This document shows, in pieces, positions 2,627 to 63,301 of a DNA stretch of 64,000 nucleotides. The DNA is from Fasciola hepatica (taxonomy: Eukaryota; Platyhelminthes; Trematoda; Plagiorchiida; Fasciolidae), in assembly GCA_948099385.1 (NCBI GenBank), contig CANUEZ040000024.1, positions 25,641,001 to 25,705,000 on the forward strand, given 5' to 3'. Position numbers and translations under genes: made by a program. The notes under the pieces were generated by a model that did not search any database, was not told where the DNA came from, and worked only from the letters and a program-made list of their open reading frames with translations. Every line of letters begins with the position of its first letter. The first letter of the stretch is position 1.

Positions 2627-2673
2627 GTATCCATTCGCAATGAGGATGTAAAGGATGCAGAACAGCAGACAGA
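2627..2673. repeat. 47-bp direct repeat (also 3437-3483)
   Basis: These 47 bp are identical at 2627-2673 and 3437-3483 (offset 810). The second large-repeat copy at 16.7 kb has only the internal one (17443-17489), so the extra copy marks a rearrangement junction specific to the 2.7-kb locus. Confidence 0.9.
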
Positions 2674-3780: not shown

Positions 3781-3784
3781 AATG

Positions 3785-17400: not shown

Positions 17401-17786
17401 GGGGAGCTACAGCTTCACGGTCACAACTAAGTGTGGCTTCTCGTATCCATTCGCAATGAGGATGTAAAGGATGCAGAACAGCAGACAGAAGGAATGTTCA
17501 ACGAGGGACCGCTCGAAATTTCTGGCCGCATCATACTTCGCGGCTGCCCACAAAATCGATCAGGGTATTTCTCGTGTTTATTCGCTGGATTGTCCTCTAC
17601 AGGAGCACAGAAGTTAGAACCATATACTGCCCAACAACGTGTCCAGAGTTTGGGCTTCGTCTCGCCTCTACCCATTGATCTGTCAGGCATCATCGCATCT
17701 CCGGATTGAGGAAGCCATTCTGCATAGGTCTTTGGGTCATGGAAGCACGCAAGCCATCACACCACGTCAATGTGGGGTCTCGTCGT
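14480..17786 (-). mobile_element. RTE-like LINE C, near full length but decayed
   Basis: Read on the minus strand, the element starts near 17786 with the same 5' UTR start as the A family. The endonuclease follows at 17318-16680 (SEIHIQD block, GVGIAL), then the linker (16388-16020, LRNDREQWR and VRWV), then RT. RT parts are HKAAGPDWLSPSVLQDG at 15971-15681 and the catalytic NLDYADDIVLL box near 15220. The post-RT segments YLGSCISPGG and GRVCAVAVRPALPYG lie at 15062-14694, with a C-terminal remnant down to 14480. Several stops and frameshifts break it. The 5' 1.1 kb is also present at 2672-3780. LINE proteins of this type nick target DNA and prime reverse transcription there; this copy cannot. 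Confidence 0.88.
16329..16349. repeat. (GT)n microsatellite inside element C
   Basis: A short GT-dinucleotide run interrupts the region between endonuclease and RT of element C. Confidence 0.9.
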
Positions 17787-19248
17787 AATGCAGATGACAG
17801 CCCTAGCCATTCGACAGTGGGTACACTACTGGAGCTTCGAATGTCTAATACTACCGCTGATTACTACAGCAGTAGTGAGATTTTTGACTTTTTCTGAATT
17901 CTCGCGAGAAAAATTGAGTTGCTTTGTCCACTTGAAAAAACGGTGAACGGCATCGGAATTTTTAAGTTATACATTCAAATATGCTATTTCTAACTACGAA
18001 GTGATCCGATAAAGCTACCTACGAAAATTGAGTGGACCGTTAGCGTTGTGTAAACCAGTGCCTCGTATATTGAACTCATGGTTATCGGGACTCCTCTAGA
18101 TTAATCAACAGTACAAGACGCCAGTGAGCATCAATGGAGAGAAACCACTGACACTGCACTCAAACGGAAATCGTTCTACTGAATGCGGTTGATTACTTTG
18201 GTGTCACGCCCTTCAAGTTCCCTGAAGGAAATTTCATATAGATCATTTTAGTCAAGATCACTGGTAGTGCTCCAAAAACTTGTTGATATTGCATCCACCA
18301 TTCTTGAGTCGCAACCTATAGTGTAAGACTAACCCTCTAACAGCGTTCATTGCGCTCGACGAGGGCTGACAAATTCATCTGTTGACTCCAATCCATACCC
18401 AAAAGTTTAGGGCTGGGATTAGAAACAGTAGAATCCCGGGAAGCAGTTATTCGGGGTGGTATCACCGGTGAGTTGGCCCACAAATGCCACAACTCACTTC
18501 CAGTGCCTTTATTGTGCTTCTACTTCTCGCTGTCGAACTGCAAGTCACCATCTGAAGATCACATATGGGTCATCCTCACCGTGACATTCGAAAAGTCGCA
18601 TTACTTATAGTCAGTGACTTCTTTCAGTGAAACAAGTGTACTAGAATTGGCCAACTGAAAATCGTGATTATGTGTACCACATAAACTCGGACCACGTATG
18701 TGAGATTGAATTATTTACGTCACCACTGTGCCAGTCTTCGTGAAATCAAATTTGATGGTAAAGCTTATTCCAATACGCTTTATTTCACCGAGATCCAAAA
18801 GATATCTGTTTGTATAAACTGAAATCAGTCTACTTCCACAGATGCAAACCACTGTGAACCACACTTCCATCCAACTGGTAGGTGATTGCCGTTGCATTGA
18901 TTCATGTTCTTGGTGCACAACACAGCTATTAGTGTGTTGCAAATCATAGCTGGATATTAGATGTAGGATTATCAAGCGTCCATTCGAAGTACCTCACCGG
19001 CTATCATTTCGAACGCCAACTGATCTCTGGAGTCTTATAGCATATAAACGACTGTTAACCAGTATCCAGTTCAAAAGGGCAGCTTCAGCCTTGTCAGTCA
19101 AGATTATTCCTACACCACATTGACCTGCAGCTCTAGCTGCTTCGCCTCCTGAAGTGTGCAGGTGATACCTTGATGAGATACCAGGAGCAGTTAGTTGAAT
19201 CACACTGCTCGAATCCCGGATACGCGTTTCGCTTACGCAGCAGGCATC
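16678..19248. repeat. 2571-bp direct repeat, copy 2
   Basis: The partner of 2672-5242 at a constant offset of 14006. Here the left end runs on without a break into the rest of RTE-like element C, so this locus looks ancestral for that side. The right end stops at 19248 inside the A-family endonuclease fragment (19001-19248), while copy 1 continues to the family 5' end at 5957. Confidence 0.95.
19001..19248 (-). pseudogene. RTE-like A-family endonuclease fragment
   Basis: The minus frame encodes CCVSETRIRD, YHLHTSGGEAARA and GVGIIL, matching the A-family endonuclease. Only about 250 bp remain. The left edge matches that of the 4995-5957 fragment; the right edge is the end of the large duplication. 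Confidence 0.85.
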
Positions 19249-20470: not shown

Positions 20471-20905
20471 ACGACGAGACTGCACCTTGACGTGGTGTGA
20501 TGGCTTGCGCGCCTCTATGACCCAAAGAGCTATACAGGATGGCTTCCTTAAGCCGGAGATGCAATCATACCTGACAGGTCAATGGGTAGAGGTCAGACGA
20601 AGTCCAGTCTCCTGGTCCTCCAGGTTGGGGGTTGATTTGAGCTAGCAACTCAGTCGGAAAAACCAGTGGAAGAATAATTGATCCAAACGAATGGGCTTCC
20701 ACTAAGCCATCCCGCTGCCTTGTGGATAGGTTCTTGTCAGAACTAAAGGCTTTGGATGAGGACCCTAATCGTTCTCCTGCTTTGTGGCTGGACACCCTAG
20801 CAGTGCCCATCCAACATCTCCCATGAACTGCACGAATGCAAATAATTCCATACTGCATCGGTCGTCACGTAGGCTAATCAGGACCGCGCTGCCCATTGCA
20901 TCGAG

Positions 20906-22429
20906 GTGGGTAGTGATAAGTGTGCTACTGCTCAGAGTTCCCTCTCTGTTATTCAACCTTTGTCTTCTGTCCCTAACCATCCCTCTTTGCCCCATCTATC
21001 CACCCATAACGCTCCCACTGATAATACGGTCAATACTCGCAACGATTCACTGTCAAATAGTACCGGGAATAATCCTCTGTCTGGTAACTCACATTTTCTC
21101 AAGCCTCGTCAGCCTCTGAATCTCGGCTCCTTCAACGTGCGTACACTCATGCAGGCCGGTCAGAAGGCGTGCCTAGCCCTCACAATAAATTCTCTGAAGA
21201 TTGATGTCTGCTGCTTAAGCGAAACGCGTATCCAGGATTCGAGCAGTGTAATTCAGCTAACTGCTCCTGGTATCTCATCGAGGTATATTCTGCGCACCTC
21301 AGGAGACGAAGCAGCTAGAGCTGTGGGTCAACGTGGTGTAGGAATTGTCTTGACTGACAAGGCTGAGGCTGCCCTATTAGACTGGATTCCTGTTAACAGT
21401 CGTTTATGTGCTGTGAGACTCCAAAGGTCAGTTGGCGTTCGAAAGGATAGTTGTGTTAAATGCAATTTGTTTCTGATCTCGGCGTACGCCCCAGCGGACT
21501 GCAGCTCAGACTTGCAGAAAGATGAGTTCTATGATGCCCTCGCCACTCTCGTTCGCAGCAGTAAAGGTTCTGACATTGTAGTGCTAGCTGGTGACTTCAA
21601 TGCACAAGTTGGCAAACTCAGTGTGTCAGAAGCCTGTTTAGGTGGGCGTTGTGCTTTACCCGCTGAGCGCACAGATAACGGGGATAGGCTTCTCCAGTTT
21701 TGTGCAGACAATCGATTGTTCTTGTCTAGCACAAATTTCCGACACAGCTCGCGTCGCACAACGACATGGCGCTCTAACTCTACAGGTGCTTTGAGTCAAA
21801 TTGATCATATTGCTATAAGCTACAGGTGGCGCAGTTCTGTTCAGAACTGTAGATCTCACTGGTCCACGTACGTAGAGTCTGACCATGCATTAGTTTTAAT
21901 GCGATTATCTCTCCAGCTCCATGGTCATCGTCGCAAACCGCAAACCCGACTAGCCGTGCAACGTTTGTGTAATCCAGAAGTCCGCACCCGGTATGAGCAG
22001 AAGTTAGCACATGAGCTAGGATCTACGACGAACAGTAATGTAGATGAACATTGGTCTCATATCAAACAGGCGATGCACGTTGCAGCAGGTTTCGCCTGTG
22101 GTCCTGGATCCGTTGTGCATCAAAGATACTGGATCTCGCAAGAGTCGCTGAGTATAATGGAGCAAAAGCGTCAGCTTTCGAACCGAAAGGAGATGAATAA
22201 GATGCGGAGAAAGCTGCAAAGACAAGTTACGAAAAGACTTAAGAATGATCGCGAAAATTGGTGGGTCAATGTAGCCGAAGAAATGGAAATAGCAGCTGCT
22301 TCAGGTAACAGTCAAAGACTGTTCAAACTTATTCGTGACACCGGTGGACCGCGAACTCAGGTCAGTGAAACGATTTGGGATAGAAATGGAGAACCCATCC
22401 ATAGCGAACAGCAAAGGCTTGACCGGTAG
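20906..22429 (+). pseudogene. A1 endonuclease region
   Basis: APE-type endonuclease blocks are complete: LGSFNVRTL (Asn), CCLSETRIQD (Glu), LISAYAPAD, VLAGDFNAQVG (Asp and Asn), TTWRSNS, QIDHI (Asp) and SDHALV (Asp-His). A basic linker follows (NRKEMNKMRRKLQRQVTKR and NDRENWWVN). The frame ends at a TAG in place of the Trp of the RWAEYF motif. The true N-terminus (MNC near 20822) is in another frame because of the 4-bp deletion. The enzyme would nick target DNA for target-primed reverse transcription. Confidence 0.9.
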
Positions 22430-23884
22430 GCCGAGTACTTCAAGAAACACTTTAGCTGGCCGCACGTTAGTGTAGTTACTCCCGTGTCAACAACTGCGAC
22501 TCCTTGGGTGGTATCACTTGAGCCCCTATCGGAAGTAGAAGTAGGGTCATGTATTCGATTACTAAGGCGGGGGAAAGCGGCACGTCCCGACGAACTTCCT
22601 CCAGTTCTTTTCAAAATGGGTGATGAGGCGTTGATAAAATCACTTACCACCTTGATCCGTGACATTTGGAACCAGGAGCGTACTCCGTTAATATGGAGCG
22701 AGTCATTGATTGTTCTCATCTTCAAGAAGGGAATACGCAATGATTGTAGTAATCATCGTGAGATTAGCTTAATTCCGATAGTCACCAAAGTATTAGCTCC
22801 GATTTTGCTGCATCGTCTTACACCTGCTTGCGATATGAATGCCCGCGAACAGCAGGCTGGATTCCGCCCAGTTCGAGGATGCACCGACCAGATTTTTACT
22901 CTTCGCCGACTACTTGAAACGCGTCACACGCACCGCCGACCAACAATAATGCTTTTCTTAGACCTGAAAGGCGCCTTCGATTCAGTGGATTGAACATCGC
23001 TTTTCAGTGTTCTTCATCGAAAAGGTGTGCCCCAGAAGTTTGTGAACCTAATGAGATCATTGTATTCTCATACTTCTGGCCGCGTAAGGGTTTACGGTGA
23101 ACTATCCGGTCGGTTCGAAACGACCAGTGGTGTTCGACAGGGATGCCCTTTGTCTCCATTCCTTTTCAACTTCGTCATGGACGAAATAATGGAGAGTGCG
23201 CTGCAAAATCTTCAGGATGTAGGTGTCGAACTAGGAAATAGTGAAAACCTATGTGACCTAGATTACGCGGACGATGTTGTCTGCTTGTTCGAATGCACGG
23301 AACATGCTCAGCGTGCACTAGATAATCTCGCAAGAGCTGTAGCTCCATTCGGCATGCGCTTTGCACCTTCAAAGTGCAAGGTGATGTTACAAGACTGGAC
23401 GTCAACAATTCCGAGCTTGATGCTCGATGGGGAGGTGCTGTCAGTTGTCGACCACTTCACCTACCTCGGTAGCTGCGTGACGACGGATGGGAGCACAGTA
23501 GTAGAGATGAGTACGCGGATATCCAAGGCGTACGCTGGACTGAAGCACTTGTGGCGCCGACCTGATATTCCACTGAAGTTGAAAGGCCGTGTATACTGTG
23601 CTGCAGTGCGTTCAGTTTTGTTGTATGGTTGCGAAACTTGGAGTCTGCGTGCTGAAGATATTCGTCGTCTCGAGGTTTTCGACCATCGATGTTCGCGTAG
23701 TATCGCTAGGATTGGGTGGAATAGCCGAGTAAGCAACGATGAGGTCAGAAAGCGAGTATTGGACATTAATTCAGAGAACGTTCTGTCACAGCGTATCCAG
23801 CTTAGTAGACTTTGTTGGTTGGGACACGTGTTACGTATGTCAAACACATCTACCATACCGTATCCTATTCTCAGTTCCTCGTAG
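22430..23884 (+). pseudogene. A1 reverse transcriptase region
   Basis: The sequence continues in frame after the TAG. RT blocks are IRLLRRGKAARPDELPP, LIVLIFKKG, REQQAGFRPVRGCTDQI, FLDLKGAFDSVD followed by a TGA stop, then SGVRQGCPLSPFLFNFV, the catalytic LDYADDVVCL near 23260, and YLGSCVTTDG. The post-RT segments VYCAAVRSVLLYGCETW and [11 protein letters not shown] follow. The catalytic box is intact, so the only obstacles in this part are the stop codons and the C-terminal frame break. Confidence 0.9.
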
Positions 23885-24301
23885 GGGTGGAAGAGACCAC
23901 GTGGAGGTCAGCAGATAACGTGGCAGTGAGAAATGAGAAAATGTACAGCAAACTTAGCAAGAGTAGGTACCTCACGTCTTCGTGGTTGTGGTCCAAAAGA
24001 TCCGTCTACCAGTTGGCTGGAGACACTGAAGGATATGGCTGCGAACCGCGAACAGTGGCGATCGTGTTGTCACTTTCTATCGAATCAGAATGTTTGATCG
24101 ATGTGCGTTTGTACAGTTAGACTGTGTATTCCGTGTGTTGGCTACTAGGGTATTCTTTCCTTTTCCCACCCATGTAGGTCCAGTCCCTGTCCATCTTGTA
24201 TATTCATACTTTCTAATTCCACGTGCAACATGGTGAGAAAGGCAGTGGTTAGTGGGGCTTGCCCTACTGTTAAACGCTGTGCGATGATGATGACGATAAT
24301 G

Positions 24302-24774
24302 ATGGGTGGGAAAAGGAAAGAATGCCCTAGTTGTCAACAAACATAATACAGTCTAACTGTACAAATGCACATTGATCAGTCATTCTGATTCGATAGAAAG
24401 TGACAACACGATCGCCACTGCACGCGGTTCGCTGCCATATCCTTCAGTGTCTCCGGCGAACTGGTAGACGGATATTTTGGACCCCAACCACGAAGACGTG
24501 AAGCACCTACTTTTGCTAAGTTTGCTGTACATTTTCTCATTCCTCACTGCCACGTTATCTGCTGACCTCCACGTGGTCTCTTCCACCCCTACGAGGAACT
24601 GAGAATAGGACACGGTATGGTAGATGTGTTTGACATACGTAACACATGCCCTAACCAACGAAGTCTACTAAGCTGGATACGCTGTGACAGAATGTTCTCT
24701 GAATTAGTATCCAATACTCGCTTTCCGACCTCAGCATTACTTACTCGGCTATTCCACCCAATCCTAGCGATACA
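24302..24774 (-). mobile_element. A-family 3' fragment (A6), interrupted by A1 and by a (TA)n tract
   Basis: The minus strand matches the A-family post-RT region and 3' UTR. Together with 20338-20470 it reconstitutes one 3' portion of about 600 bp. Its 5' side is cut at 24774, next to the TA repeat at 24779. It faces the 3' part of A1 and forms an inverted repeat with it. Confidence 0.88.
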
Positions 24775-36892: not shown

Positions 36893-37247
36893 CATCACGA
36901 CGAGACTGCACCTTGACGTGGTGTGATGGCTTGCGCGCCTCTATGACCCAAAGAGCTATACAGGATGGCTTCCTTAAGCCGGAGATGCAATCATACCTGA
37001 CAGGTCAATGGGTAGAGGTCAGACGAAGTCCAGTCTCCTGGTCCTCCAGGTTGGGGGTTGATTTGAGCTGGCAACTCAGTCGGAAAAACCAGTGGAAGAA
37101 TAATTGATCCAAGAAATGGGCTTCCACTAAGCCATCCCGCTGCCTTGTGGATAGGTTCTTGTCAGAACTAAAGGCTTTGGATGAGGACCCTAATCGTTTT
37201 CCTGCTTTGTGGCTGGACACCCTAGCAGTACCCGTCCAACATCTCCC

Positions 37248-38858
37248 ATGAACTGCACGACTACAAATAATTCCATACTGCATCGGTCGTCACGCAGGCT
37301 AATCAGGACCGCGCTGCCCATCGCATCGAGCGGGGTGGGTAGTGATAAGTGTGCTACTGCTCAGAGTTCCCTCTCTGTTATTCAACCTTTGCCTCCTGTC
37401 CCTAACCATCCCTCTTTGCCCCATCTATCCACCCATAATGCTCCCATTGATAACACGGTCGATACTCGCAACGATTCACTGTCAAATAGTATCGGGAATA
37501 ATCCTCTGACTGGTAACTCACATTTTCTCAAGCCCCGTCAGCCTCTGAATCTCGGCTCCTTCAACGTGCGTACACTCATGCAGGCCGGTCAGCAGGCGTG
37601 CCTAGCCCTCACAATAAATTCTCTGAAGATTGATGTCTGCTGCTTAAGCGAAACGCGTATCCAGGATTCGAGCAGTGTAATTCAGCTAACTGCTCCTGGT
37701 ATCTCATCGAGGTATATTCTGCGCACCTCAGGAGACGAAGCAGCTAGAGCTGTGGGTCAACGTGGTGTAGGAATTGTCTTGACTGGCAAGGCTGAGGCTG
37801 CCCTATTAGACTGGATTCCTGTTAACAGTCGTTTATGTGCTGTGAGACTCCAAAGGTCAGTTGGCGTTCGAAAGGATAGTTGTGTTAAATGCAATTTGTT
37901 TCTGATCTCGGCGTACGCCCCAGCGGACTGCAGCTCAGACTTGCAGAAAGATGAGTTCTATGATGCCCTCGCCACTCTCGTTCGCAGCAGTAAAGGTTCT
38001 GACATTGTAGTGCTAGCTGGTGACTTCAATGCACAAGTTGGCAAACTCAGTGTGTCAGAAGCCTGTTTAGGTGGGCGTTGTGCTTTACCCGCTGAGCGCA
38101 CAGATAACGGGGATAGGCTTCTCCAGTTTTGTGCAGACAATCGATTGTTCTTGTCTAGCACAAATTTCCGACACAGCTCGCGTCGCACAACGACATGGCG
38201 CTCTAACTCTACAGGTACTTTGAGTCAAATTGACCATATCGCCGTAAGCTACCAATGGCGCAGTTCTGTTCAGAACTGTAGATCTTACTGGTCCACGTAC
38301 GTAGAGTCGGACCATGCATTAGTTTTAATGCGATTATCTCTCCAGCTCCATGGTCATCGTCGCAAACCGCAAACCCGACTAGCCGTGCAACGTTTGTGTA
38401 ATCCAGAAGTCCGCACCCGGTATGAGCAGAAGTTAGCACATGAGCTAGGATCTACGACGAACAGTAATGTAGATGAGCATTGGTCTCATATCAAACAGGC
38501 GATGCACGTTGCAGCAGGTTTCGCCTGTGGTCCTGGATCCGTTGTGCATCAAAGATACTGGATCTCGCAAGAGTCGCTGAGTATAATGGAGCAAAAGCGT
38601 CAGCTTTCGAACCGAAAGGAGATGAATAAGATGCGGAGAAAGCTGCAAAGACAAGTTACGAAAAGACTTAAGAATGATCGCGAAAATTGGTGGGTCAATG
38701 TAGCCGAAGAAATGGAAATAGCAGCTGCTTCAGGTAACAGTCAAAGACTGTTCAAACTTATTCGTGACACCGGTGGACCGCGAACTCAGGTCAGTGAAAC
38801 GATTTGGGATAGAAATGGAGAACCCATCCATAGCGAACAGCAAAGGCTTGACCGGTAG
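37248..38858 (+). CDS. A2 N-terminal region and APE-type endonuclease
   Basis: An ATG at 37248 (MNCTTTNN) is the first Met of the frame; upstream in-frame sequence has no ATG. After a Ser/Pro-rich leader of about 90 residues comes the endonuclease: NLGSFNVRTL, CCLSETRIQD, SAYAPADC, VLAGDFNAQVG, TTWRSNSTG, QIDHI and SDHALV. All catalytic Asn, Glu, Asp and His positions are present. A basic segment follows (RKEMNKMRRKLQRQ, LKNDRENWW). It ends at TAG 38856-38858, where the family motif RWAEYF predicts Trp. The endonuclease could in principle fold alone, but the RT is out of reach without readthrough. Confidence 0.88.
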   Translation: MNCTTTNNSILHRSSRRLIRTALPIASSGVGSDKCATAQSSLSVIQPLPPVPNHPSLPHLSTHNAPIDNTVDTRNDSLSNSIGNNPLTGNSHFLKPRQPLNLGSFNVRTLMQAGQQACLALTINSLKIDVCCLSETRIQDSSSVIQLTAPGISSRYILRTSGDEAARAVGQRGVGIVLTGKAEAALLDWIPVNSRLCAVRLQRSVGVRKDSCVKCNLFLISAYAPADCSSDLQKDEFYDALATLVRSSKGSDIVVLAGDFNAQVGKLSVSEACLGGRCALPAERTDNGDRLLQFCADNRLFLSSTNFRHSSRRTTTWRSNSTGTLSQIDHIAVSYQWRSSVQNCRSYWSTYVESDHALVLMRLSLQLHGHRRKPQTRLAVQRLCNPEVRTRYEQKLAHELGSTTNSNVDEHWSHIKQAMHVAAGFACGPGSVVHQRYWISQESLSIMEQKRQLSNRKEMNKMRRKLQRQVTKRLKNDRENWWVNVAEEMEIAAASGNSQRLFKLIRDTGGPRTQVSETIWDRNGEPIHSEQQRLDR

Positions 38859-40322
38859 GCCGAGTACTTCAAGAAACACTTTAGCTGGCCGCACGCTAGT
38901 GTAGTTACTCCCGTGTCAACAACTGCGACTCCTTGGGTGGTATCACTTGAGCCCCTATCGGAAGTAGAAGTAGGGTCATGTATTCGATTACTAAGGCGGG
39001 GGAAAGCGGCACGTCCCGACGAACTTCCTCCAGTTCTTTTCAAAATGGGTGATGAGGCGTTGATAAAATCACTTACCACCTTGATCCGTGACATTTGGAA
39101 CCAGGAGCGTACTCCGTTAATATGGAGCGAGTCATTGATTGTTCTCATCTTCAAGAAGGGAATACGCAATGATTGTAGTAATCATCGTGAGATTAGCTTA
39201 ATTCCGATAGTCACCAAAGTATTAGCTCCGATTTTGCTGCATCGTCTTACACCTGCTTGCGATATGAATGCCCGCGAACAGCAGGCTGGATTCCGCCCAG
39301 TTCGAGGATGCATCGACCAGATTTTTACTCTTCGCCGACTACTTGAAACGCGTCACACGCACCGCCGACCAACAATAATGCTTTTCTTAGACCTGAAAGG
39401 CGCCTTCGATTCAGTGGATTGAACATCGCTTTTCAGTGTTCTTCATCGAAAAGGTGTGCCCCAGAAGTTTGTGAACCTAATGAGATCATTGTATTCTGAT
39501 ACTTCTGGCCGCGTAAGGGTTTACGGTGAACTATCCGGTCGGTTCGAAACGACCAGTGGTGTTCGACAGGGATGCCCTTTGTCTCCATTCCTTTTTAACT
39601 TCGTCGTGGACGAAATAATGGAGAGTGCGCTGCAAAATCTTCAGGATGTAGGCGTCGAACTAGGAAATAGTGAAAACCTATGTGACTTAGATTACGCGGA
39701 CGATGTTGTCTGCTTGTTCGAATGCACGGAACATGCTCAGCGTGCACTAGATAATCTCGCAAGAGCTGTAGCTTCATTCGGCATGCGCTTTGCACCTTCA
39801 AAGTGCAAGGTGATGTTACAAGACTGGACGTCAACAATTCCGAGCTTGATGCTCGATGGGGAGGTGCTGTCAGTTGTCGACCACTTCACCTACCTCGGTA
39901 GCTGCGTGACGACGGATGGGAGCACAGTAGTAGAGGTGAGTACGCGGATATCCAAAGCTCGAGCGGCGTACGTTGGACTGAAGCACTTGTGGCGTCGATC
40001 CGATATTTCACTGAAGTTGAAAGGTCGTGTATACTGTGCCACTGTGCGTTCAGTTTTGTTGTACGGTTGCGAAACTTGGAGTCTGCGTGCTGAAGATATT
40101 CGTCGTCTTGAGGTTTTCGACCATCGATGTTTACGTAGTATCGCTAGGATTGGGTGGAATAGCCGAGTAAGCAACGATGAGGTCAGAAAGCGAGTATTGG
40201 ACATTAATTCAGAGAACGTTCTGTCACAGCGTATCCAGCTTAGTAGACTTTGTTGGTTGGGACACGTGTTACGTATGTCAAACACATCTACCATACCGTA
40301 TCCTATTCTCAGTTCCTCGTAG
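38859..40322 (+). pseudogene. A2 reverse transcriptase region
   Basis: In frame after the TAG: AEYFKKHFSWP, IRLLRRGKAARPDELPP, FKKGIRND, REQQAGFRPVRGCIDQI, FLDLKGAFDSVD and a TGA (39420-39422). Then come GVPQKFVNLMRSLYSD, SGVRQGCPLSPFLFNFV, the catalytic LDYADDVVCL near 39690, YLGSCVTTDG, LLYGCETW and WLGHVLRMS. The frame ends at 40322, and the C-terminal region continues in another frame to about 40550. The catalytic Asp pair is intact. Confidence 0.9.
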
Positions 40323-40738
40323 GGGTGGAAGAGACCACGTGGAGGTCAGCAGATAACGTGGCAGTGAGGAATGAGAAAATGTACAGCAAACTTAGCAAAA
40401 GTAGGTGCTTTACGTCTTCGTGGTTAGGGTCCAAAAGATCCGTCTACCAGTTGGCTGGAGACACTGAAGGATATGGCTGCGAACCGCGAACAGTGGAGAT
40501 CGTGTTGTCACTTTCTATCGAATCAGAATGTTTGATCGGTGTACGTTTGTACAGTTAGACTGTGTATTCCGTGTGTTGGCTACTAGGGCATTCTTTTCTT
40601 TTCCCACCCATGTAGGTCCACTCCCTCTCCATCTTGTATATTCATACTTTTTAATTCAACGTGCAACATGGTGAGAAAGGCAGTGTTCAGTGGGGCTTGC
40701 CCTACTGTTTAACGCTGTACGATGATGATCATGATGAT

Positions 40739-40920
40739 GAATTAGGCCTTGACGAGGTGAACGAACTTAACAGATCTCTCGAACTGACTCATAAGCAGTC
40801 ACAATCATACACGAATAACAAATCAGCCTATTGCCGTTAGAGCCTCCCCCCCCCCAGGTCATGCATGTCTGTCACATCCCCTACTTCTTCGAAGACATCT
40901 GTCCCGGCAGCCGCCCGCCA
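40739..40920 (+). pseudogene. Ty3/gypsy gag, right part
   Basis: Starting with the second target duplication, the gag reading resumes: ELGLDEVNELNRSLELTHK and QSYTNNKSAY, followed by a Pro-rich linker near 40845-40910. It is cut by the 5'-truncated A4 at 40924. No zinc knuckle was found beyond A4. Confidence 0.8.
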
Positions 40921-40923
40921 GAC

Positions 40924-41986
40924 AAGATAATGGAGGATGCATTGCGAAACCTTCGGGGTGTGGGCATCGAACTAGAAAATAATGGAAAGCTATGTGATCT
41001 AGATTACCCAGACGATCTTGTCTGCTCGTCCCAATGCACGGAACACGCGCAACGTGCACTGGATAGACTCGCAAGAGCTGTAGCTCTATTCGGCATGCGC
41101 TTTGCGCCTTCAAAAAGTGAAGTGATGTTACAAGACTGGACGTCAACGATTCCGAGCTTGAAGCTCGATGGGGAGGTGCTGACAACTGTCGACCGCTCCA
41201 CCTATCTCGGCAGCAACGTGACGATGGATGGGAGTACTGTAGTAGAGGTGAGCACACGTACATCCAAACCTCGAATGGCGTGCACTGGACTGAAGCACTT
41301 GTGGCGCCGATCTGATATTTCATTGAAGTTGAAAGATCGTGTATACTGTGCTGCGGTGCGCTCAGTTTTGTTATACAGTTGCGAGACTTGGAGTCTGCGA
41401 GCGGAAGATATTCGTCGTCATGAGGTTTTCGACCATCGATGTTCGCGTAGTATCGCTAAGATTGGGTGGAATAGCCGAGTAAGTAATGCTGAGGTCGGAA
41501 AGCGAGTATTGGGTACTAATTCAGAGAAAATTCTGTCACAGCGTATCCAGCTTAGTAGACTTCGTTGGTTAGGGCATGTGTTACGTATGTCAAACACATC
41601 TACCATACCGTGTCCCATTCTCCGTTCCTCCCACGGAATGGAAAAAACGACGTGGATATCAACAGAGCGAGGAATGAGAAAATGTACAGCAAACTTAGCA
41701 AAAGTAGGTGCTTTACGTCTTCGTGGTTGGGGTCCAAAATATCCGTCTACCAGTTGGCTGGAGACACTAAAGGATATGGATGCTAACCGTGAACAGTGTT
41801 GTCACTTTCTGTCGAATCAAAATGATTGATTAATGTGCGTTTGTACAGTTAGACGGTGTATTCGGTGTGTTGGCTATTAGGGCGTTCTTTTCTTTTCCTG
41901 CCTGTTTAGGCCACTCTATGTTGATCTCGCATATTCACTCGCTTTATTTCCACATGCAACATGGTAAGAAAGGCAGTGGTCAGTGC
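40924..41986. repeat. Large inverted repeat, left arm (1063 bp)
   Basis: It pairs with 45204-46266 base for base without indel (coordinates sum to 87190 at both ends). The spacer is 3217 bp and holds a SINE, a Penelope remnant with its own inverted repeat, microsatellites and an RT remnant. Confidence 0.93.
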
Positions 41987-42020
41987 GGCTCGCCGTGCTG
42001 GTTAACGCTCCTTAATGATG
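40924..42020 (+). mobile_element. RTE-like A-family copy A4, 5'-truncated, YPDD box
   Basis: Begins inside the RT (DKIMEDALRNLRGVGIELENN) and runs in one open frame to 41829 with LDYPDDLVCSS, YLGSNVTMDGS, LLYSCETW and the full C-terminus (WGPKYPSTSWLETLKDMDANREQC). The 3' UTR follows to about 42000 with a poor tail. 40924-41986 is the inverted partner of 45204-46266. A4 and A5 share details that A3 lacks (a Glu-to-Lys change near the C-terminus in one frame, and the same 3' UTR), so they are closest relatives. Confidence 0.9.
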
Positions 42021-45156: not shown

Positions 45157-45196
<40 letters not shown>

Positions 45197-45203
45197 GCAA
45201 CCT

Positions 45204-46266
45204 GCACTGACCACTGCCTTTCTTACCATGTTGCATGTGGAAATAAAGCGAGTGAATATGCGAGATCAACATAGAGTGGCCTAAACAGGCAGGAAAAGAA
45301 AAGAACGCCCTAATAGCCAACACACCGAATACACCGTCTAACTGTACAAACGCACATTAATCAATCATTTTGATTCGACAGAAAGTGACAACACTGTTCA
45401 CGGTTAGCATCCATATCCTTTAGTGTCTCCAGCCAACTGGTAGACGGATATTTTGGACCCCAACCACGAAGACGTGAAGCACCTACTTTTGCTAAGTTTG
45501 CTGTACATTTTCTCATTCCTCGCTCTGTTGATATCCACGTCGTTTTTTCCATTCCGTGGGAGGAACGGAGAATGGGACACGGTATGGTAGATGTGTTTGA
45601 CATACGTAACACATGCCCTAACCAACGAAGTCTACTAAGCTGGATACGCTGTGACAGAATTTTCTCTGAATTAGTACCCAATACTCGCTTTCCGACCTCA
45701 GCATTACTTACTCGGCTATTCCACCCAATCTTAGCGATACTACGCGAACATCGATGGTCGAAAACCTCATGACGACGAATATCTTCCGCTCGCAGACTCC
45801 AAGTCTCGCAACTGTATAACAAAACTGAGCGCACCGCAGCACAGTATACACGATCTTTCAACTTCAATGAAATATCAGATCGGCGCCACAAGTGCTTCAG
45901 TCCAGTGCACGCCATTCGAGGTTTGGATGTACGTGTGCTCACCTCTACTACAGTACTCCCATCCATCGTCACGTTGCTGCCGAGATAGGTGGAGCGGTCG
46001 ACAGTTGTCAGCACCTCCCCATCGAGCTTCAAGCTCGGAATCGTTGACGTCCAGTCTTGTAACATCACTTCACTTTTTGAAGGCGCAAAGCGCATGCCGA
46101 ATAGAGCTACAGCTCTTGCGAGTCTATCCAGTGCACGTTGCGCGTGTTCCGTGCATTGGGACGAGCAGACAAGATCGTCTGGGTAATCTAGATCACATAG
46201 CTTTCCATTATTTTCTAGTTCGATGCCCACACCCCGAAGGTTTCGCAATGCATCCTCCATTATCTT
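45204..46266. repeat. Large inverted repeat, right arm (1063 bp)
   Basis: The inverted partner of 40924-41986; see the left arm. Confidence 0.93.
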
Positions 46267-46422
46267 TTCCATGACGAAGTTGAACAGGAATGGAGACATA
46301 GGACATCCCTGTCGAACACCACTGGTCGTTTCGAACCGACCGGATAGTTCACCGTAAACCCTTACGCGGCCAGAAGTATCAGAATACAATGATCTCATTA
46401 GGTTCACGAACTTCTGGGGCAT
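45361..46422 (-). pseudogene. A5 RT C-terminal half with YPDD box
   Basis: The 353-codon frame is the same as in A3 apart from isolated differences, including the YPDD substitution and the intact C-terminal region. An upstream TGA after FDSVD separates it from the first RT blocks. Confidence 0.88.
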
Positions 46423-54561: not shown

Positions 54562-54566
54562 CTGTG
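54562..54566. repeat. BEL target-site duplication, left (ctgtg)
   Basis: ctgtg directly before the left LTR and again at 61176-61180 after the right LTR. Five base pairs is usual for Pao/BEL. Confidence 0.9.
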
Positions 54567-54932
54567 TGTAACAGCCGGTCGTGGAAAATCCCCCTATTTC
54601 CCTCGCGATTCAGTGTTCTTCCCAACATCACTCATTTGCCTACACTGTTGACTTGTCTTGTCTTTTTCTGGACCAATTTTTGTTTGTTCGCGCCCAGAGC
54701 GCTACTTTGGCACATCCTTGTTCAGGACCTGCGTGACGCACGTGCTGTTTGCTCACACGCTGCTATTCGGTTTCTCGTTGTTGAGTCCTTGTGGTCGTAT
54801 TATTGAGGTTTGTATATTTTTTATGTCATTGTTCATGTAATAATCTAGTATCGTAGAATATCACGGATAATCGTCTTTTGACTTCGGGATCCGTTGCGAA
54901 TTTGGCTACGCATTGCTCAAGCTTTCGTTACA
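54567..54932 (+). repeat. BEL left LTR
   Basis: 366 bp, starting tgtaacagccggtcgtgg and ending ttcgttaca. It serves as promoter and reverse-transcription repeat. Confidence 0.97.
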
Positions 54933-54973
54933 ATACTCAATAGATCAATTTGGAACGAGGAAAAACACGCAAA

Positions 54974-55806
54974 ATGCCAAGAAAAGGATCAAAAGCAGTG
55001 GAATCCGGACAGGAAGTAACACGGCAAGTCTCTGGGGAGGTTTTGGTACATTTGATTCTTTAGTTAATGCTAGATCGTCTAGTCCTGTCAGTGCTAGTTC
55101 ATGTGTTAATGAGAGCAATATTGATCGTAAGGATGTCGATTTATATAAGCTGAGAATACTAGACCTAGAGCAGCAGTTACTATCGGCTAGACTACAGGCG
55201 CAGGAAGCAGAGAAGAAGTGTACACAGAAAGAGCGAGAGCATGAGACCAGCGACTTCGACACTTCCGATAGATTAGGGTGCAATAAGTTAGGGAACCCCA
55301 CGCCGGTCGCCGACTACAAACCACCATCGGTCGATCTGCCTAGAGTGGAACTAACGGGTTTCGACGGGCGAGCTGTGCAATACTGCAAGTTTGTCAAGCA
55401 GTTCGAGACGTTCGTTGAAAATAAGGTAACCGACCCTGGGCAAAGGCTTCTCTACCTTACTCACTACTGCCGAGGCCGAGCAAGAGAATCTATCGACGGG
55501 TGCACCATGCTCGACCCAGAACAAGGCTTCACAAGGGCAAGGAAGATCCTAAGGGACTTGTTTGGCCAACCTTTCAAAGTAGCCCGTAACCTAATAGAGG
55601 GCGTGATGGTAGAGGCAAAGAGAACCAAGGGCGACGTCTACACCATGGCTGACCTGGTGATTAAGATGCAAAACTGCTCAATAGCCCTAGACCATTTAGG
55701 TTACAGGGCTGACCTAGACGCCATGCAAACTTTGGAAGGCATAGTCCGTCACCTCTCTCCCGAACTACAGGGTCGGTGGGCGGAAGAAGCAGAACGGATA
55801 AGCTGA
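54974..55806 (+). pseudogene. BEL gag, N-terminal part
   Basis: The first ATG after the left LTR (54974, MPRKGSK) is one frame off from the main gag frame, so a shift near 55040 is likely. The main frame shows a Ser-rich stretch, then a coiled-coil-like segment (YKLRILDLEQQLLSARLQAQ) and the BEL gag core (LPRVELTGFDGRAVQYCKF, RLLYLTHYCRGRARESI, ARKILRDLFGQPFKVA, ALDHLGYRADLDAMQTLEGI). It stops at TGA 55804-55806 in the middle of the domain, with clear continuation in the same frame. Gag forms the particle that packages the element RNA. Confidence 0.9.
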
Positions 55807-58800
55807 AGCGACAGAGAAGCCAACTTCGAAGACCTGACCGATTACTGGGACAGGCAAACGAAGATAGCTGACAGCAGATTCGGCCAACTCATCCGGGACA
55901 GCAACCGACCAAACAAGCCCAGTACTAGCAAGGCTCAAACCCCTGTACGGGAACATCCAAAGTACCAGCCTTGGACCAATACACACGTCATTTCACGAGA
56001 TGCTACGGCGCAACCCAATTGCAGATCCTGTGGTGCTAGCCATGGCTTACCAGAATGCCCCAAGTTCGGCAACGCCACAGTAGACGAACGGTGGGGAATG
56101 GCGAGGATGGCAGGGGCATGTTTTATCTGTCTGAACAAAACGCACCGGGCAGCAGCCTGTAGGACAAGAAATCGATGTGGTTACGAGGGCTGCACGGGCA
56201 GACACCATCGGCTGCTGCATCAGGCGAGAGTAACCATATCCGAGGCGAGTACCAAGCCCAGTGTGATTTGTTCAACGTCACGATCTGCCAGTAAACCGGT
56301 ACGTTTAGGCGTAGTGGCCGTGGGAGTAGTGACTCCGACTGGGGTAGTCAAGGCGTTGGCTTTCGTTGATAGTGGATCCGACACCACTTTAGTGAAAGAG
56401 CGGTTTGCCGACAAACACCAGCTGGCTAAAGGTGCGACGTCGTTGGCAGTGAGCACGGTGGGCGGAACACAGGTAATGACTGCCGGTAGATTAAGGCTGC
56501 AACTCATCTCTCTAGACACTAACGAGGAAATTGAACCAACGGAGGCATTCTTGTTAGCGGATCTCCCTATGCGAGCACCAAGGTTGGTCAACGCAATCTT
56601 GACTCGGTGGCCCCACCTGCAGGATGTAGCCGTTGTAGACTGGGAAGATGATGAAGTGGATCTCCGCATCGGCTGCGACGTGCCAGAGGCGCATTGGGTG
56701 CTTGACCAGAGAGTGGGCGACCGCCAGGCACCTTATGCCGTACGCACGGATCTGGGGTGGATGTTATACGGTCCAGTAGGGGTACGCGGTTCCGTGAATT
56801 ACTTACCCGCCGAAACGGACCGCATAGAGTATCATCTGCAATGGCTGTATGAAAAGGAGTTTCATGACATTGGAGATGAAAGACCATCGTTGTCTCAAGA
56901 GGATCACTCCGCTCTACAAACGGTACGGCAAGGCACTAGAGGCCTCAGAAAGCAGTTCGAGGTTCCCCTCCCATGGCGCACATCGGTCGACCCGTGGACG
57001 GACAACAGAAATTATGTTCTCCAACGATTACTACGACAAAAAGAACGCTTCATTCGAGACCAGAATCTGTGGGAACGATACGCGGATTTGATGAAGCGAA
57101 ACGAGACCCTCGGTTACGTTGAAAAGGTGCCTGTTAACACCGACAGCAAAAGGGGTATCTGGTATCTGCCTCACCATCCGGTTATCAACCTCAAGAAACC
57201 CAATAAACTGCGCGTGGTCTTCGACTGTGCGGCCAAGTTCCAGGGCAAGTCGGTAAACGATCGCCTACTACAGGGGACTGACTGGACCACACCACTGATC
57301 GATGTTTTGTGCCGTTTCAGAGTGGGTAAAGTGGCTTTGTCTGCCGACATTAGGGAAATGTTCCATCAGGTGAAGATTTCGGTAGGAGAACGAGATGCTT
57401 TGAGTTTCCTGTGGTGGGAAGGGAGCGACCGGGACAACGCAGTGGTGAATTATAGGAGGACCGTCCACCCCTTCGGAGCCATATCGTCACCATTTTGTGC
57501 AAACTACGCCCTCCGAGAATCAGCGAACAAACATGGCGATCTAGTACATCAGACGGTGGTAGAAAGCGTCAGCAGGAACTTCCACGTCGACGACTACCTT
57601 GGGTCATTCGATGATGTGGAATCAGCTCTAGAGCAGTTCAGGGGTCTGACGAGATTGCCGGAAGAGGGCGGCTTCCATCTAACTAAATGGATGTCGAACG
57701 CTTCAGAAGTGCTGAAGGTCATCCCGTATCACGAAAAGGCCGAAAGGGTAAGAGATTTGGACGGCTCTGCACTTCCAATCGAGCGCACCTTAAGGATGCA
57801 ATGGGACGCGGAAACGGACGATTTTGTTTTCGAACTAAACGTTCCCGAGCTGCCAATAACCCGTCGTGGCATACTACCTGCCGTCTCAAGTTTGTTCGAC
57901 CCGCTCGGTTTCGTCTCACCATGGCCGCTACCCGGAAAGATCTTGCTGCAGCGGCTGTGCCGTAAGAAAGTTGATTGGGATCAGTCACTGGACCGAGGGG
58001 ACCGGTTGGATTGGGAAGAATTTTTGAACACACTGAAGAAATTAGGGGACATAAGAATCCTACGATGTTGGACTCCTGGCCATACGACGCGGACTGGAGA
58101 ACTAAATGCCTTTTCCGATGCATCCAAAGTCGGTTATGGAACTGTGGTGTATGGACGATGGTGCGCAGGAGATGGACAATATACCATGAGGATCCTGTTC
58201 GCCAAAGCCCGCGTTGCTCCACTGAAGTCGGTCTCAATCCCACGCCTTGAACTCAGCGCAGCCGTGTTGGCACTCAGGGTGGTGCAAGCTGTGAAGAGAT
58301 GTTTCGATCTATACATTTGGTCGGTGAGCTTCTGGACGGATTCAACGATAGTACTTTACTATATCAACAACGTCCGGAGCCGGTTTAGTACTTTCGTTGC
58401 TAACCGGCTCACGATTATCCACGATGAATCAGCCACGCACCAGTGGAATCATGTCAGGTCTGGCGATAATCCGGCCGACCTGTGCTCCCGAGGTGCGAAC
58501 AACTTCAGGCAACTGGACACGTGGACGAGAGGGCCATACTTCCTGCACTTGCCCAAACGGGACTGGCCCGCGTTCGAATTAAAACCTCCTACGGAAGTGG
58601 AACTGGAGATCAAAGGCGTAGTGATGGTGGCCAACGTCGTCGAAGCGACATCCATTCTATCGCGACTGGTCAGGTTTTCTTCCTGGATGAAGACGCTTCG
58701 TTCGCTAGTTTGGTTAACCAGGTTCAAGAGAAATTTACTAGTCATGAAAGGGCTACGGCCCTCAGGCCGGATACGGGTCGCCCCGATAGGTCCCGATGAG

Positions 58801-59100
58801 CTACAAGCGGCAGAGTACGATATTTTCAGAATGACACAACGCGAGGCTTTCGCCAGAGAGCTCAAGAGAGCGGAAGAAGTGGGGCCGACCAATAAAGACA
58901 TACCATCTCCAAGAGGCGAGCTGAAGCGTTTAAACCCCAAACTCATCGACAGACTGCTGCGGGTGGATGGTAGGCTGACCAACGCGCACGTGAACTTCGA
59001 CACAAATTATCCTAATCTGCAACCTGCGAGACAACCTGTAGTAGAGCTAATGATTCAACACGTCCACGCCGTGGAGGGACATGCGGGGAGAGTCACGTGA
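55807..59100 (+). pseudogene. BEL gag C-terminus and pol: zinc knuckles, protease, RT, RNase H, integrase start
   Basis: In frame after the TGA: SDREANFEDLTDYWDR, then Cys-rich knuckles (CRSCGASHGLPEC and CFICLNKTHRAAACR, 56020-56160). The aspartic protease is FVDSGSDTTLV (about 56365). RT has FDCAAKFQGKSVNDRLL, LSADIREMFHQVKI, HPFGAISSPFCANYAL and the catalytic FHVDDYLGS (57580-57605). RNase H follows: NAFSDASKVGYG (about 58110), SIPRLELSAAVLAL, FWTDSTIVLYYI and NPADLCSRGA. The integrase zinc region starts (VHAVEGHAG) and the frame ends at 59100; the rest is in the -1 frame. From 56098 the frame is open for 1000 codons. Confidence 0.93.
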
Positions 59101-60149
59101 CAAGCGTCATCCGAAAGCGTCTTTGGTTGTTGAGAGGACGAGAGACTGTAAAACGTGTAATCCGACGGTGTGTGCAATGTAGGAGACGCAATGCCACAGC
59201 AGGCAAACAACACATGGCCCCACTACCAGAATGCAGGGTGACTACGGGCTGGTGGCCGTTCAGTGACACCGGGTTGGACTATTTCGGGCCCTTGTGGATC
59301 AAGTGCGGGAAAAGATTAGAAAAGCGATACGGATGTATCATGACGTGCATGAAGTCACGTGCGGTACACCTAGAGGTCGCCCATTCGATGACGACCGATT
59401 CGTTTCTACGGGCCTTGCAAAGATTTATCAACCGAAGAGGCGTACCGGCCGATATATACTCCGATAATGGATCGAACTTTGTGGGCGCTCACCGGGAATT
59501 GCAGCGTTGGCACAAGAACATAAACAGGGACGAACTGCAGGATCGAACCGTGGCCTACGGCATACGATGGCATTTCAACCCCCCACAGGCCGGCCACCGA
59601 GGCGGCGTATGGGAACGCATGATCCGGTCCGCCAGACGGATATTGCTGTCAATCATGGAGCAGCAGCCGCCTGACGACGAGACGCTAAACACTGTCACGA
59701 CTGAGGTGGAGCGAATCCTGAACAACCGCCCCCTGGTTCCAGTAAAGGACGGCGACCCCACCCACCTGGCGCTCACCCCAAGCGACTTATTGACGCTAAG
59801 GTCGAACGAGGGTTTCCAAGGGCCGGTAAACCTTCGTGGGAGCTACCTCCACGGGTGGAAGCAAGCGAACTATCTGGCCAAGGTCTTCTGGAGGCGAGGG
59901 TTGCGAGAGTACCTACCGGCTTTGCAGACTCGACAGAAGTGGCTGGCCAAAACAAGACCATTCAAAGCTGGGGAACGCGCACATTTCAGCACTTGGTCTT
60001 TGGGAGTAGTTACGGGAACCATCAAAAGCACTGACGGAATGATAAGAACGGTGAAGGTGAAGACAGCTAACGGAGTGCTCATTCGTGACATACGCAGTAT
60101 TAACTTACTCGAGAGCGAAGACGGAGGAGCTGATAACCCTGAGGCCTAG
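59097..60149 (+). CDS. BEL integrase
   Basis: This frame overlaps the end of the pol frame by four bases in the -1 register, at CACGTGA. It encodes the zinc-region Cys pair (RRCVQCRR) and the DDE core: SDTGLDYFGPLWIK (Asp, about 59272), IYSDNGSNFVGA (Asp, about 59455) and HRGGVWERMIRS (Glu, about 59605). A C-terminal domain follows (FKAGERAHFSTWSLGVVTG to LIRDIRSINLL). It inserts cDNA with a 5-bp stagger. The join could be a programmed shift, but the missing base inside the zinc domain looks more like a mutation. Confidence 0.92.
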   Translation: MTSVIRKRLWLLRGRETVKRVIRRCVQCRRRNATAGKQHMAPLPECRVTTGWWPFSDTGLDYFGPLWIKCGKRLEKRYGCIMTCMKSRAVHLEVAHSMTTDSFLRALQRFINRRGVPADIYSDNGSNFVGAHRELQRWHKNINRDELQDRTVAYGIRWHFNPPQAGHRGGVWERMIRSARRILLSIMEQQPPDDETLNTVTTEVERILNNRPLVPVKDGDPTHLALTPSDLLTLRSNEGFQGPVNLRGSYLHGWKQANYLAKVFWRRGLREYLPALQTRQKWLAKTRPFKAGERAHFSTWSLGVVTGTIKSTDGMIRTVKVKTANGVLIRDIRSINLLESEDGGADNPEA

Positions 60150-60809
60150 TAAACCTTTTCACACCAGTCATCGAGGTGGATAAAGAAACACCATATATAC
60201 CACACGGTCTCCGTGAAACACGTTACAGTGCTCGCGGTCTTTCGTTGACATTACAGAAGGTTCTTTCCGATATGTGGTGATGAATGCGATCCCATTGTAT
60301 ATCCCGATACATACACACATGCACGGCGCACTCTAAATCCCGTAAACCCATCAAACATGTGACAGTGTCTGTTGTTTTGCTTTTTGTTGACGTTACCGAC
60401 TGCCCCTCGCATGTGTGGAAGTAGCGGAGCTCAGGTCACACACACATGCTACATTTTACTCGTTTTCTTGCCACACGGTCTTTTGTTGACATTGCATAAA
60501 GTCCTCCTTTGATGTGTAGTCATACCTGTGATTTCATTGTACACCCCGGCACACACACACACTCAAGCACATACATCCAGGACCAGACGGCCCTTTAAGA
60601 GGACAACATCTATGTGATCCTTCACACCCGCCATCGGTCATTTGGTCTCGTGGAAGATGCAGACTAGCCTCACGTCTATGTAGCCAATGGGTTAGGTGCG
60701 ACCATTAGACGCGCGCACTGACAGCAGGGCCTAGGCAGGTAGAAAGAATCAGCACCTTTATACCAAAACCTTGACTCTGCTAAGGATCCAGGAGGATTTT
60801 GGTGGGCGG
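60150..60809 (+). other. BEL 3' non-coding region with internal repeats
   Basis: 660 bp without coding. Two diverged repeats of about 90 bp (60234-60325 and 60476-60570) share cggtctttYgttgacatt, a tgtatatccc/tgtacacccc segment and a CA-rich end. A third ttttgttgacgttacc lies at 60381. The purine-rich ggaggattttggtgggcgg just before 60810 is the likely polypurine tract. Confidence 0.8.
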
Positions 60810-61175
60810 TGTAACAGCCGGTCGTGGAAAATCCCCCTATTTCCCTCGCGATTCAGTGTTCTTCCCAACATCACTCATTTGCCTACACTGTTGACTTGTC
60901 TTGTCTTTTTCTGGACCAATTTTTGTTTGTTCGCGCCCAGAGCGCTACTTTGGCACATCCTTGTTCAGGACCTGCGTGACGCACGTGCTGTTTGCTCACA
61001 CGCTGCTATTCGGTTTCTCGTTGTTGAGTCCTTGTGGTCGTATTATTGAGGTTTGTATATTTTTTATGTCATTGTTCATGTAATAATCTAGTATCGTAGA
61101 ATATCACGGATAATCGTCTTTTGACTTCGGGATCCGTTGCGAATTTGGCTACGCATTGCTCAAACGTTCGTTACA
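60810..61175 (+). repeat. BEL right LTR
   Basis: 366 bp, matching the left LTR except near 61164. It is followed by the second ctgtg. Confidence 0.97.
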
Positions 61176-62200: not shown

Positions 62201-62584
62201 CAAGGGTTGCGGGGACGGAGGAGCCCCGGAATCATGCTCAAATACGGGGTAAAACCGTAGCCGGAGGAATAGGGGTGGCGCATTGTTCCACCCTGTGCTA
62301 GTCATTGAGGTGGATTTCGGGGAGGACCGATACGATTGGCCAGAAGAATACGCACGACTCCTATTTCAGAACAGGTCCTCCATGACTAGCCCCTGGATGC
62401 CTCACTAAATGTAGTAAAGCGCACACTGAACCATAGGACTCCGGTGTCGATTGTCCGGATCCCAAAGGCGAATCAGCCCTCACTCCAAACGATCCGCTTT
62501 TGTTGTGACCAAATTCGGGATCAGTTGCTTTAAAAACTCTTTAAATAGCATACATCACAGAATGGAGGCAAATTAGTTGCTTGG
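62201..62584. other. No feature recognised
   Basis: Nothing supportable before the hairpin. Confidence 0.4.
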
Positions 62585-62820
62585 GAAATGTCATGGTAGA
62601 ATTTTATTGCTCAATAACACAGCGTAGTCGAGATCGTTGGTAGGTTGTCGACGTTTCGGTCACCACGGGTAACCTTTTCAAGACTGGTTTTACAACCAGT
62701 TTCATTCGGTTGTAAAACCAGTCTTGAAAAGGTTACCCGTGGTGACCGAAACGTCGACAACCTACCAACGATCTCGACTACGCTGTGTTATTGAGCAATA
62801 AAATTCTACCATAACATTTC
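62585..62820. repeat. 236-bp near-perfect hairpin
   Basis: Arms 62585-62697 and 62708-62820 (113 bp each) pair with a single mismatch (C62592 against A62813) around a 10-nt loop (agtttcattc). Each arm carries a cgacgtttcggtcacc or ggtgaccgaaacgtcg segment. The core ccgaaacgtcg resembles sequence commonly seen near Penelope-type termini, but no Penelope coding was found beside it. No other copy occurs in this window. Confidence 0.97.
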
Positions 62821-63301
62821 ACATGGCGCATCGATTTTTCGATACACTCCGAACCGATTTCAGTTCTGACACATTAATTGGGAAAGGTCTTCTAGAAAAT
62901 TCGGACGAGGGAGCAAATACCAAAGCAGCAGCCTCAAATAAAGTAGATCGCCAAAGAAATGTTGTTCAGTTTTCATGTCGTCATCCTTGCGGAGTGCTAA
63001 CTTCCGATCCATTTTCCCGCCTACGGTTCACGCTCTGGACGACGATATCCATGTCAGACGACCCACATGAAAGCCGCGAATCGATCGCACATACTCACGC
63101 AGCCATTAATTTTTGTGCCTTGTGGCGTTTGGATCAAGCGGCCGCCTAAACATTCAAGCCGTCGCACCCACAAGCAAACACAACACTAAAAACTTATGCA
63201 AATCCTGCCCATGCATAGACACACAAAAGTTTGACGATACTGATACCCCATTCAAAAAGGCGCTGACCAGTCGAACATCAACCCTTCACGAACAGTTCTG
63301 A
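62821..63301 (+). other. Unassigned plus-strand frames beside the hairpin
   Basis: A 108-codon frame starts 3 bp after the hairpin (62823, MAHRFFDTLRTDFSSD) and overlaps another of 62 codons with several Cys (NLCKSCPCIDTQKFDD) that ends at 63301. Neither matches a family I know. They may be N-terminal parts of a Penelope-like or other element, or chance. Confidence 0.3.

Follow-up and report, generated by a model that had tools for sequence, protein, structure and literature searches.

The window, that is, the whole stretch of 64,000 nucleotides of Fasciola hepatica DNA analysed here, contains a nearly perfect hairpin near its right end, a BEL/Pao LTR retrotransposon, a fragment of a Penelope-like element (PLE) and several long repeats (Table 1). 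The best named relatives of the PLE and BEL/Pao proteins of the window were flatworm proteins (Sparganum, Spirometra, Schistosoma, Trichobilharzia, Dicrocoelium and Calicophoron). Inspection of the hairpin confirmed the geometry described in an earlier sequence-only reading, with 113-bp arms (62585–62697 and 62708–62820), one mismatch and a 10-nt loop; the arms could be extended to 116 bp with 2 mismatches. In a window-wide hairpin scan it scored 110, and the remaining 14 of the 15 best listed hairpins all belonged to one AT repeat and scored 58 or less. Folded as RNA, the hairpin gave −210 kcal/mol (z −35), and none of 200 shuffles was equally good.

It was found that the arms of the hairpin did not coincide with the borders of the element. 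Both mismatches of the 116-bp arms lay inside a target duplication, and the shared arms of the element itself (62593–62697 and 62708–62812) were identical at 105 of 105 positions. The last 7–8 bases of the left duplication match the element past its end site A by chance, so that the arms appeared longer than they are. The right copy continued to 62877, beyond the end of the hairpin. The insertion was therefore placed at 62593–62877 (285 bp), between the two copies of a 12-bp target duplication that differ at one position. The short sequence that had been noticed at the ends of both arms is present, but the left one belongs to the target duplication. A check for target duplications at the ends of the 113-bp arms gave only two scattered 5-mers, whereas 11 of 12 bp agreed at the corrected edges. 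The insertion is small and fairly recent, and the genome holds many of its kind.

Table 1. Features of the insertion and other repeats and elements in the window (sites A and B are the template end sites described in the text)
Feature	Position	Strand	Remarks
Left target-site duplication copy, TTGGGAAATGTC	62581..62592	+	11/12 identical to right copy
Inverted pseudo-LTR copy, 105 bp	62593..62697	-	Outer end at template site A; without tail; 105/105 identical to direct copy
Direct pseudo-LTR copy, 180 bp	62698..62877	+	10 bp native upstream, shared 105 bp and tail
10-nt 'loop', AGTTTCATTC	62698..62707	+	Native upstream of direct copy in most other copies shown
Hammerhead-like motif, direct copy	62724..62753	+	Stem TTGAAAA / GAAACGTC; core unlike active consensus
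One-sided tail, 65 bp	62813..62877	+	From template site A to B; holds ORF start ATG of parent element
Right target-site duplication copy, TTGGGAAAGGTC	62878..62889	+	
BEL/Pao LTR retrotransposon	54566..61175		LTRs 54566..54932 and 60809..61175, 99.5% identical; Pao peptidase, integrase and DUF5641 above cut-off, DUF1759 just below
PLE fragment, 5'-truncated, other family	7989..9329	-	One internal stop codon; 56–59% to unnamed metagenome proteins, about 53% to tapeworm proteins
Direct repeats	2669..5242 and 16675..19248		99.1% over 2574 bp
Direct repeats	20471..24302 and 36897..40740		97.6% over 3845 bp; hold non-LTR-type endonuclease-RT frames
Inverted copies	40921..42000 and 45190..46269		99.4% over 1080 bp

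The parent element was recognized from longer copies in the same genome, in which one RT/GIY-YIG frame ends shortly ahead of the arm and the next one begins shortly behind it. In 9 of 30 fetched loci (L036–L039, L047, L048, L053, L059 and L061), of which L036–L039 look like mutual duplicates, a Penelope-type RT/endonuclease frame with the orientation of the arm was found upstream of it. Locus L080 carries a natural open frame of 828 codons that begins in the pseudo-LTR; of this frame 827 residues were scanned, and both RVT_1 (1.5e-10) and GIY-YIG (9.6e-6) were above the Pfam cut-offs. These domains were detected on copies of the family rather than on the non-coding window copy. The pseudo-LTR flanks the L080 frame on both sides (sense-strand 3752–4257 and 6504–7004), which fits (partial) tandem copies. 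Because RT/GIY-YIG frames adjoin it, the arm was assigned as the pseudo-LTR or 5' untranslated region of a PLE. The RT frame of the L080 type matched PLE-like proteins at about 30% by tblastn, and its placement is one of similarity. As judged from protein comparison (31% identity over the aligned part), the family of the hairpin differs from that of the PLE fragment elsewhere in the window. Protein frames of the arm itself, compared with 120 PLE proteins, gave matches at chance level only.

Two further observations concern PLE copies outside the window. The four PLE ends of L036–L039 have the same flanks and lie, two each, on contigs C231 and C199 in opposite orientations; they are segmental duplications or haplotype copies. 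At L041, L056, L058 and L063, copies of the family were located no more than about 1 kb from PLE frames of a different kind (45–58% to the proteins used in the search), as if they had inserted near or in them.

The arm was searched for in the assembly of the window itself (1.5 Gb, 656 contigs), in which the window occupies 25641001–25705000 of contig C24. Scoring of 40 out of 1297 first-look candidates gave 58 matches to the right arm, which is a lower bound. A 22-base motif from the arm had 1213 exact copies (590 + 623), and its reversed control 0. By exact pattern, 79 close head-to-head pairs were found at a spacing of 56–86 and 22 at 87–117, so that the genome holds at least 101 of them. 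The sequence-only reading had proposed that many copies with paired arms in the same genome would define a family, and such copies were indeed abundant. Among 100 of the 1213 motif places counted by hand, there were 11 opposite-strand neighbours at less than 1 kb, all of them head to head and none tail to tail. No tail-to-tail pair was found at a spacing of 56–86 either; but the motif lies 57 bases from site A, so tail-to-tail spacing would be ∼114 or more and this range is too short for a fair control.

For quantitative comparison, 65 loci were passed through one script, namely 19 fetched earlier and 46 from the hairpin pattern, the latter being drawn from the 50 of 79 places listed, less four already in the sample. 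After removal of one duplicate and of two long copies without a close pair, 62 distinct head-to-head pairs were obtained. In 56 of them, one unit ended at site A (reference 424–447) and the other at site B (495–521), and none of the 62 had two A ends or two B ends. An end outside these sites was seen in the other 6 pairs (L055, L068, L100, L109, L117 and L118); a second matching piece of L109 reaches 497, and it may be an A/B pair too. The outer ends of the two units corresponded to different template positions in all 62 pairs. In the longer copies with parts of the ORF, the inverted units of L080, L081, L082 and L086 ended at 435–438, and the match of L087 stopped at 401.

Target duplications were common among these insertions. 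Flanks that agreed exactly over at least 8 bp were observed in 44 of the 62 pairs, compared with 8 of 3782 mismatched pairings. When both units were at least 95% identical to the reference, the fraction was 31/34, with lengths of mostly 11–14 bp, which include any overlap with the unit ends. Such overlap amounted to 1 nt or more on the inverted side in 38 of 45 cases and on the direct side in 35 of 45. A smaller earlier set with loci of all kinds gave shared flanks in 16 of 29 (5 of 812 in the control), and the five longer copies with ORF parts (L080, L081, L082, L086 and L087) shared flanks of 12–15 bp. Comparison of the flank with the template beyond site A revealed no excess of matches (2.1 of 8; control, 2.2).

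The inner ends were also clustered, at 315–339 in 56 of 62 direct and 51 of 62 inverted units, as would be expected if both cDNAs had run off at the 5' end of the RNA. The joints varied between copies: 47 pairs had an overlap of 1 to 13 nt and 15 a filler of 1 to 12 nt; the larger values stem partly from older copies and may be an effect of alignment. Overlaps of 2 nt or more were present in 37 of 62 pairs; among randomly simulated joints the share was 17%. A snap-back loop had no room at 19 of the 47 overlap joints, and 13 among those were exactly symmetric; the other 28 (18 of 32 among younger ones) were compatible with snap-back. At five positions polymorphic among source elements, the two arms agreed in 33/36, 56/59, 49/58, 55/57 and 51/54 pairs, while the background disagreement elsewhere was 209/5410. 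The arms thus share source variants, which implies one RNA, one source, or copying of one arm from the other.

With RT/GIY-YIG frames adjoining the arm, many paired copies and flanking target duplications, the suggestion of a solo pair of inverted Penelope pseudo-LTRs was supported, and the PLE identity made the other two suggestions, a foldback DNA element or an unknown small mobile unit, superfluous. A transposase-moved foldback or MITE-like element would account for a long inverted repeat with a target duplication. It would be at odds with arms whose outer ends lie at unlike template positions in every pair, with no like-ended pair among the 62, with joints that vary between copies, and with an arm that belongs to a longer RT/GIY-YIG element; this explanation is already largely refuted. 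An assembly or read artefact, which a nearly perfect palindrome might suggest, has still less probability, considering that the flanks differ, that a target duplication is present and that dozens of copies each have their own flanks and joints. It is also improbable, although less so, that the host retains the locus as a hairpin-RNA source of siRNA. The perfect stem would suit this function, and inverted repeats are the supposed origin of siRNA in Drosophila virilis Penelope (PMC3136932); but the copies differ in age and have flanks unrelated to one another, as expected of insertions. With this published parallel, siRNA output from the hairpin is plausible, and siRNA might arise as a by-product.

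The main rival explanation is self-priming, in which the end of the cDNA folds back and copies the first arm. This idea has been published for the inverted PLE copies of Adineta vaga, where it is stated for an antisense template (PMC3846280). It would explain the source variants common to both arms, the excess of overlaps of 2 nt or more and the palindromes at the joint. Nevertheless, no loop is left at 19 of the 47 overlap joints and 15 joints contain filler, and self-priming gives no reason for the sharing of stop sites A and B by 56 of 62 pairs; we regard it as unlikely. Together with the target duplications and the constant division of sites A and B between the two copies, the joints without a loop favour two cDNAs primed on two cut strands.

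We therefore propose, with a probability of roughly 0.7, that the hairpin is a head-to-head solo pseudo-LTR pair of an endonuclease-bearing PLE, made by priming from both cut strands of the target. The PLE enzyme would cut the two target strands ∼12 bp apart, and each cut end would prime reverse transcription of the 5' region of one PLE RNA, one strand using site B and the opposite strand site A. The two cDNAs, which would be separate molecules, would extend almost to the RNA 5' end and then be joined head to head, usually via a short overlap. Cutting and extension of both strands and starts at two adjacent internal sites, as reported in vitro for an Anolis PLE (PMC11167929), agree with this scheme. 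Several observations speak against priming on two strands: 28 of the 47 overlap joints (18 of the 32 younger ones) also permit snap-back, one of the polymorphic positions differs between the arms in 9 of 58 pairs, and 6 of 62 pairs have an end outside sites A and B. Moreover, the Anolis PLE in vitro had no strand difference in start site (PMC11167929), whereas the two copies of a pair here use different sites. Going beyond the window copy, we lean somewhat towards the view that PLEs of this type insert by default via paired target-primed reverse transcription: a single RNA would be the template of two cDNAs, one begun at fixed site A from one cut strand and one at fixed site B from the opposite cut strand, and the cDNA ends would anneal. 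If this is true, a single reaction would yield the solo hairpin, as its shortest product, as well as the one-sided tail and the inverted pseudo-LTR.

A motif in the arm stem (Table 1) has the layout of a minimal hammerhead, and the two arms were the only places in the window fitting a hammerhead-like descriptor. The active hammerhead consensus is CTGANGA. This was absent among the 25 commonest readings listed for 100 motif contexts in fetched loci of the same genome, of which 57 read AGTC TTGAAAAAGG. The motif core departs from the active consensus at the positions aligned by eye as C3 and G8 (position names from PMC11167929). Speculatively, a U3–A8 pair might replace C3–G8. A literature search on the hammerhead C3–G8 pair yielded no relevant paper, and one with the motif letters yielded nothing on retroelements, as judged by titles. 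No Rfam model, hammerhead included, matched the window at gathering level. Loose Rfam searching of the hairpin gave 11 matches, 10 to long-stem microRNA models and one to a bacterial sRNA, all below gathering scores, which were taken as an effect of the perfect stem. The tail could be folded into a stem-loop with z −2.9 in L053 (2 of 200 shuffles equally good) and z −1.1 in the window copy, which has a substitution (25 of 200). Pair counts over the T units showed mostly unchanged pairs and double changes in isolation only, and thus gave no evidence of selection on the RNA.

The head-to-head structure itself is of a known kind, and the value of the present family lies in its many young, readable insertions and their ends. 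According to PMC3846280, Penelope families of Adineta vaga also have head-to-head inverted pseudo-LTRs with a one-sided tail, as well as target duplications, palindromes at joints and solo pseudo-LTRs. However, the tail is 31 bp there and about 65 bp here, and the target duplications are 8–10 bp there and mostly 11–14 bp here, end overlap included. The Fasciola family further differs in having more than 1000 motif copies, many pairs without any ORF, and joints that often misfit self-priming. The Poseidon-type PLE of Anolis carolinensis likewise has a GIY-YIG + RT frame, with two adjacent internal start sites, close to where the ORF begins, which correspond to the tail, and its enzyme cut and extended both strands in vitro (PMC11167929). 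Its start site did not differ between the strands in vitro, whereas each pair here uses one site per copy; and its hammerhead motif, also near the ORF start, contrasts with the motif core here, which is without the active consensus letters. The same 2024 study described second-strand synthesis and later steps as still to be validated. A quantitative footprint of end sites, joints and duplications was not found in the open-access literature searched. The more than 1000 motif copies and dozens of readable pairs make the completion of PLE insertion measurable from genome sequence, and the two sharply placed end sites, the target duplications and the variable joints are the material for this measurement. 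Inverted repeats within copies are also known from Drosophila virilis Penelope, where they are thought to feed 21-nt siRNAs (PMC3136932, PMC12910113). If transcribed, the hairpins here would be ready sources of double-stranded RNA.

Outside the fluke genome, the motif in a head-to-head pair was also observed on L005 and L029, two GTDB contigs labelled as bacterial MAGs. Like the window copy, L005 has a one-sided extension (∼31 bp), and an 11/12 target duplication was found at its shorter arm (11 or more was reached in 6 of 1000 shuffles). The similarity of the two stretches to the window copy was little outside the motif. No PLE frame was found on the fetched stretches of L005 and L029, and a protein search with the L029 frame gave no match. 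The hairpin stretches of both are probably of animal origin; the MAGs presumably come from termite guts. The GTDB pattern scan had returned 32 stretches, among which L005, L007, L020 and L029 appeared animal-like by eye; the others were taken as mostly chance matches in bacteria, judged by GC and appearance. Three or more further stem pairs beyond the pattern GG..CC were present in 4 of 5 animal-like motifs and in 0 of 29 others (L034, a copy of L033, was left out of this count). The pattern scan of viral contigs gave 0 matches; with a looser pattern, two contigs were obtained that share one stretch, which was taken as phage. Comparison of PLE proteins with viral contigs gave 64 pattern stretches, and that with GTDB contigs 50; none of them was confirmed. 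The animal-like hairpin stretches on contigs labelled as gut bacteria were L005:1-1400, L007:900-1015 and L029:3300-3780; beyond about 1400 the GC content of L005 becomes high, and L007 stops at the centre of the hairpin, suggesting chimeric or contaminated assemblies.
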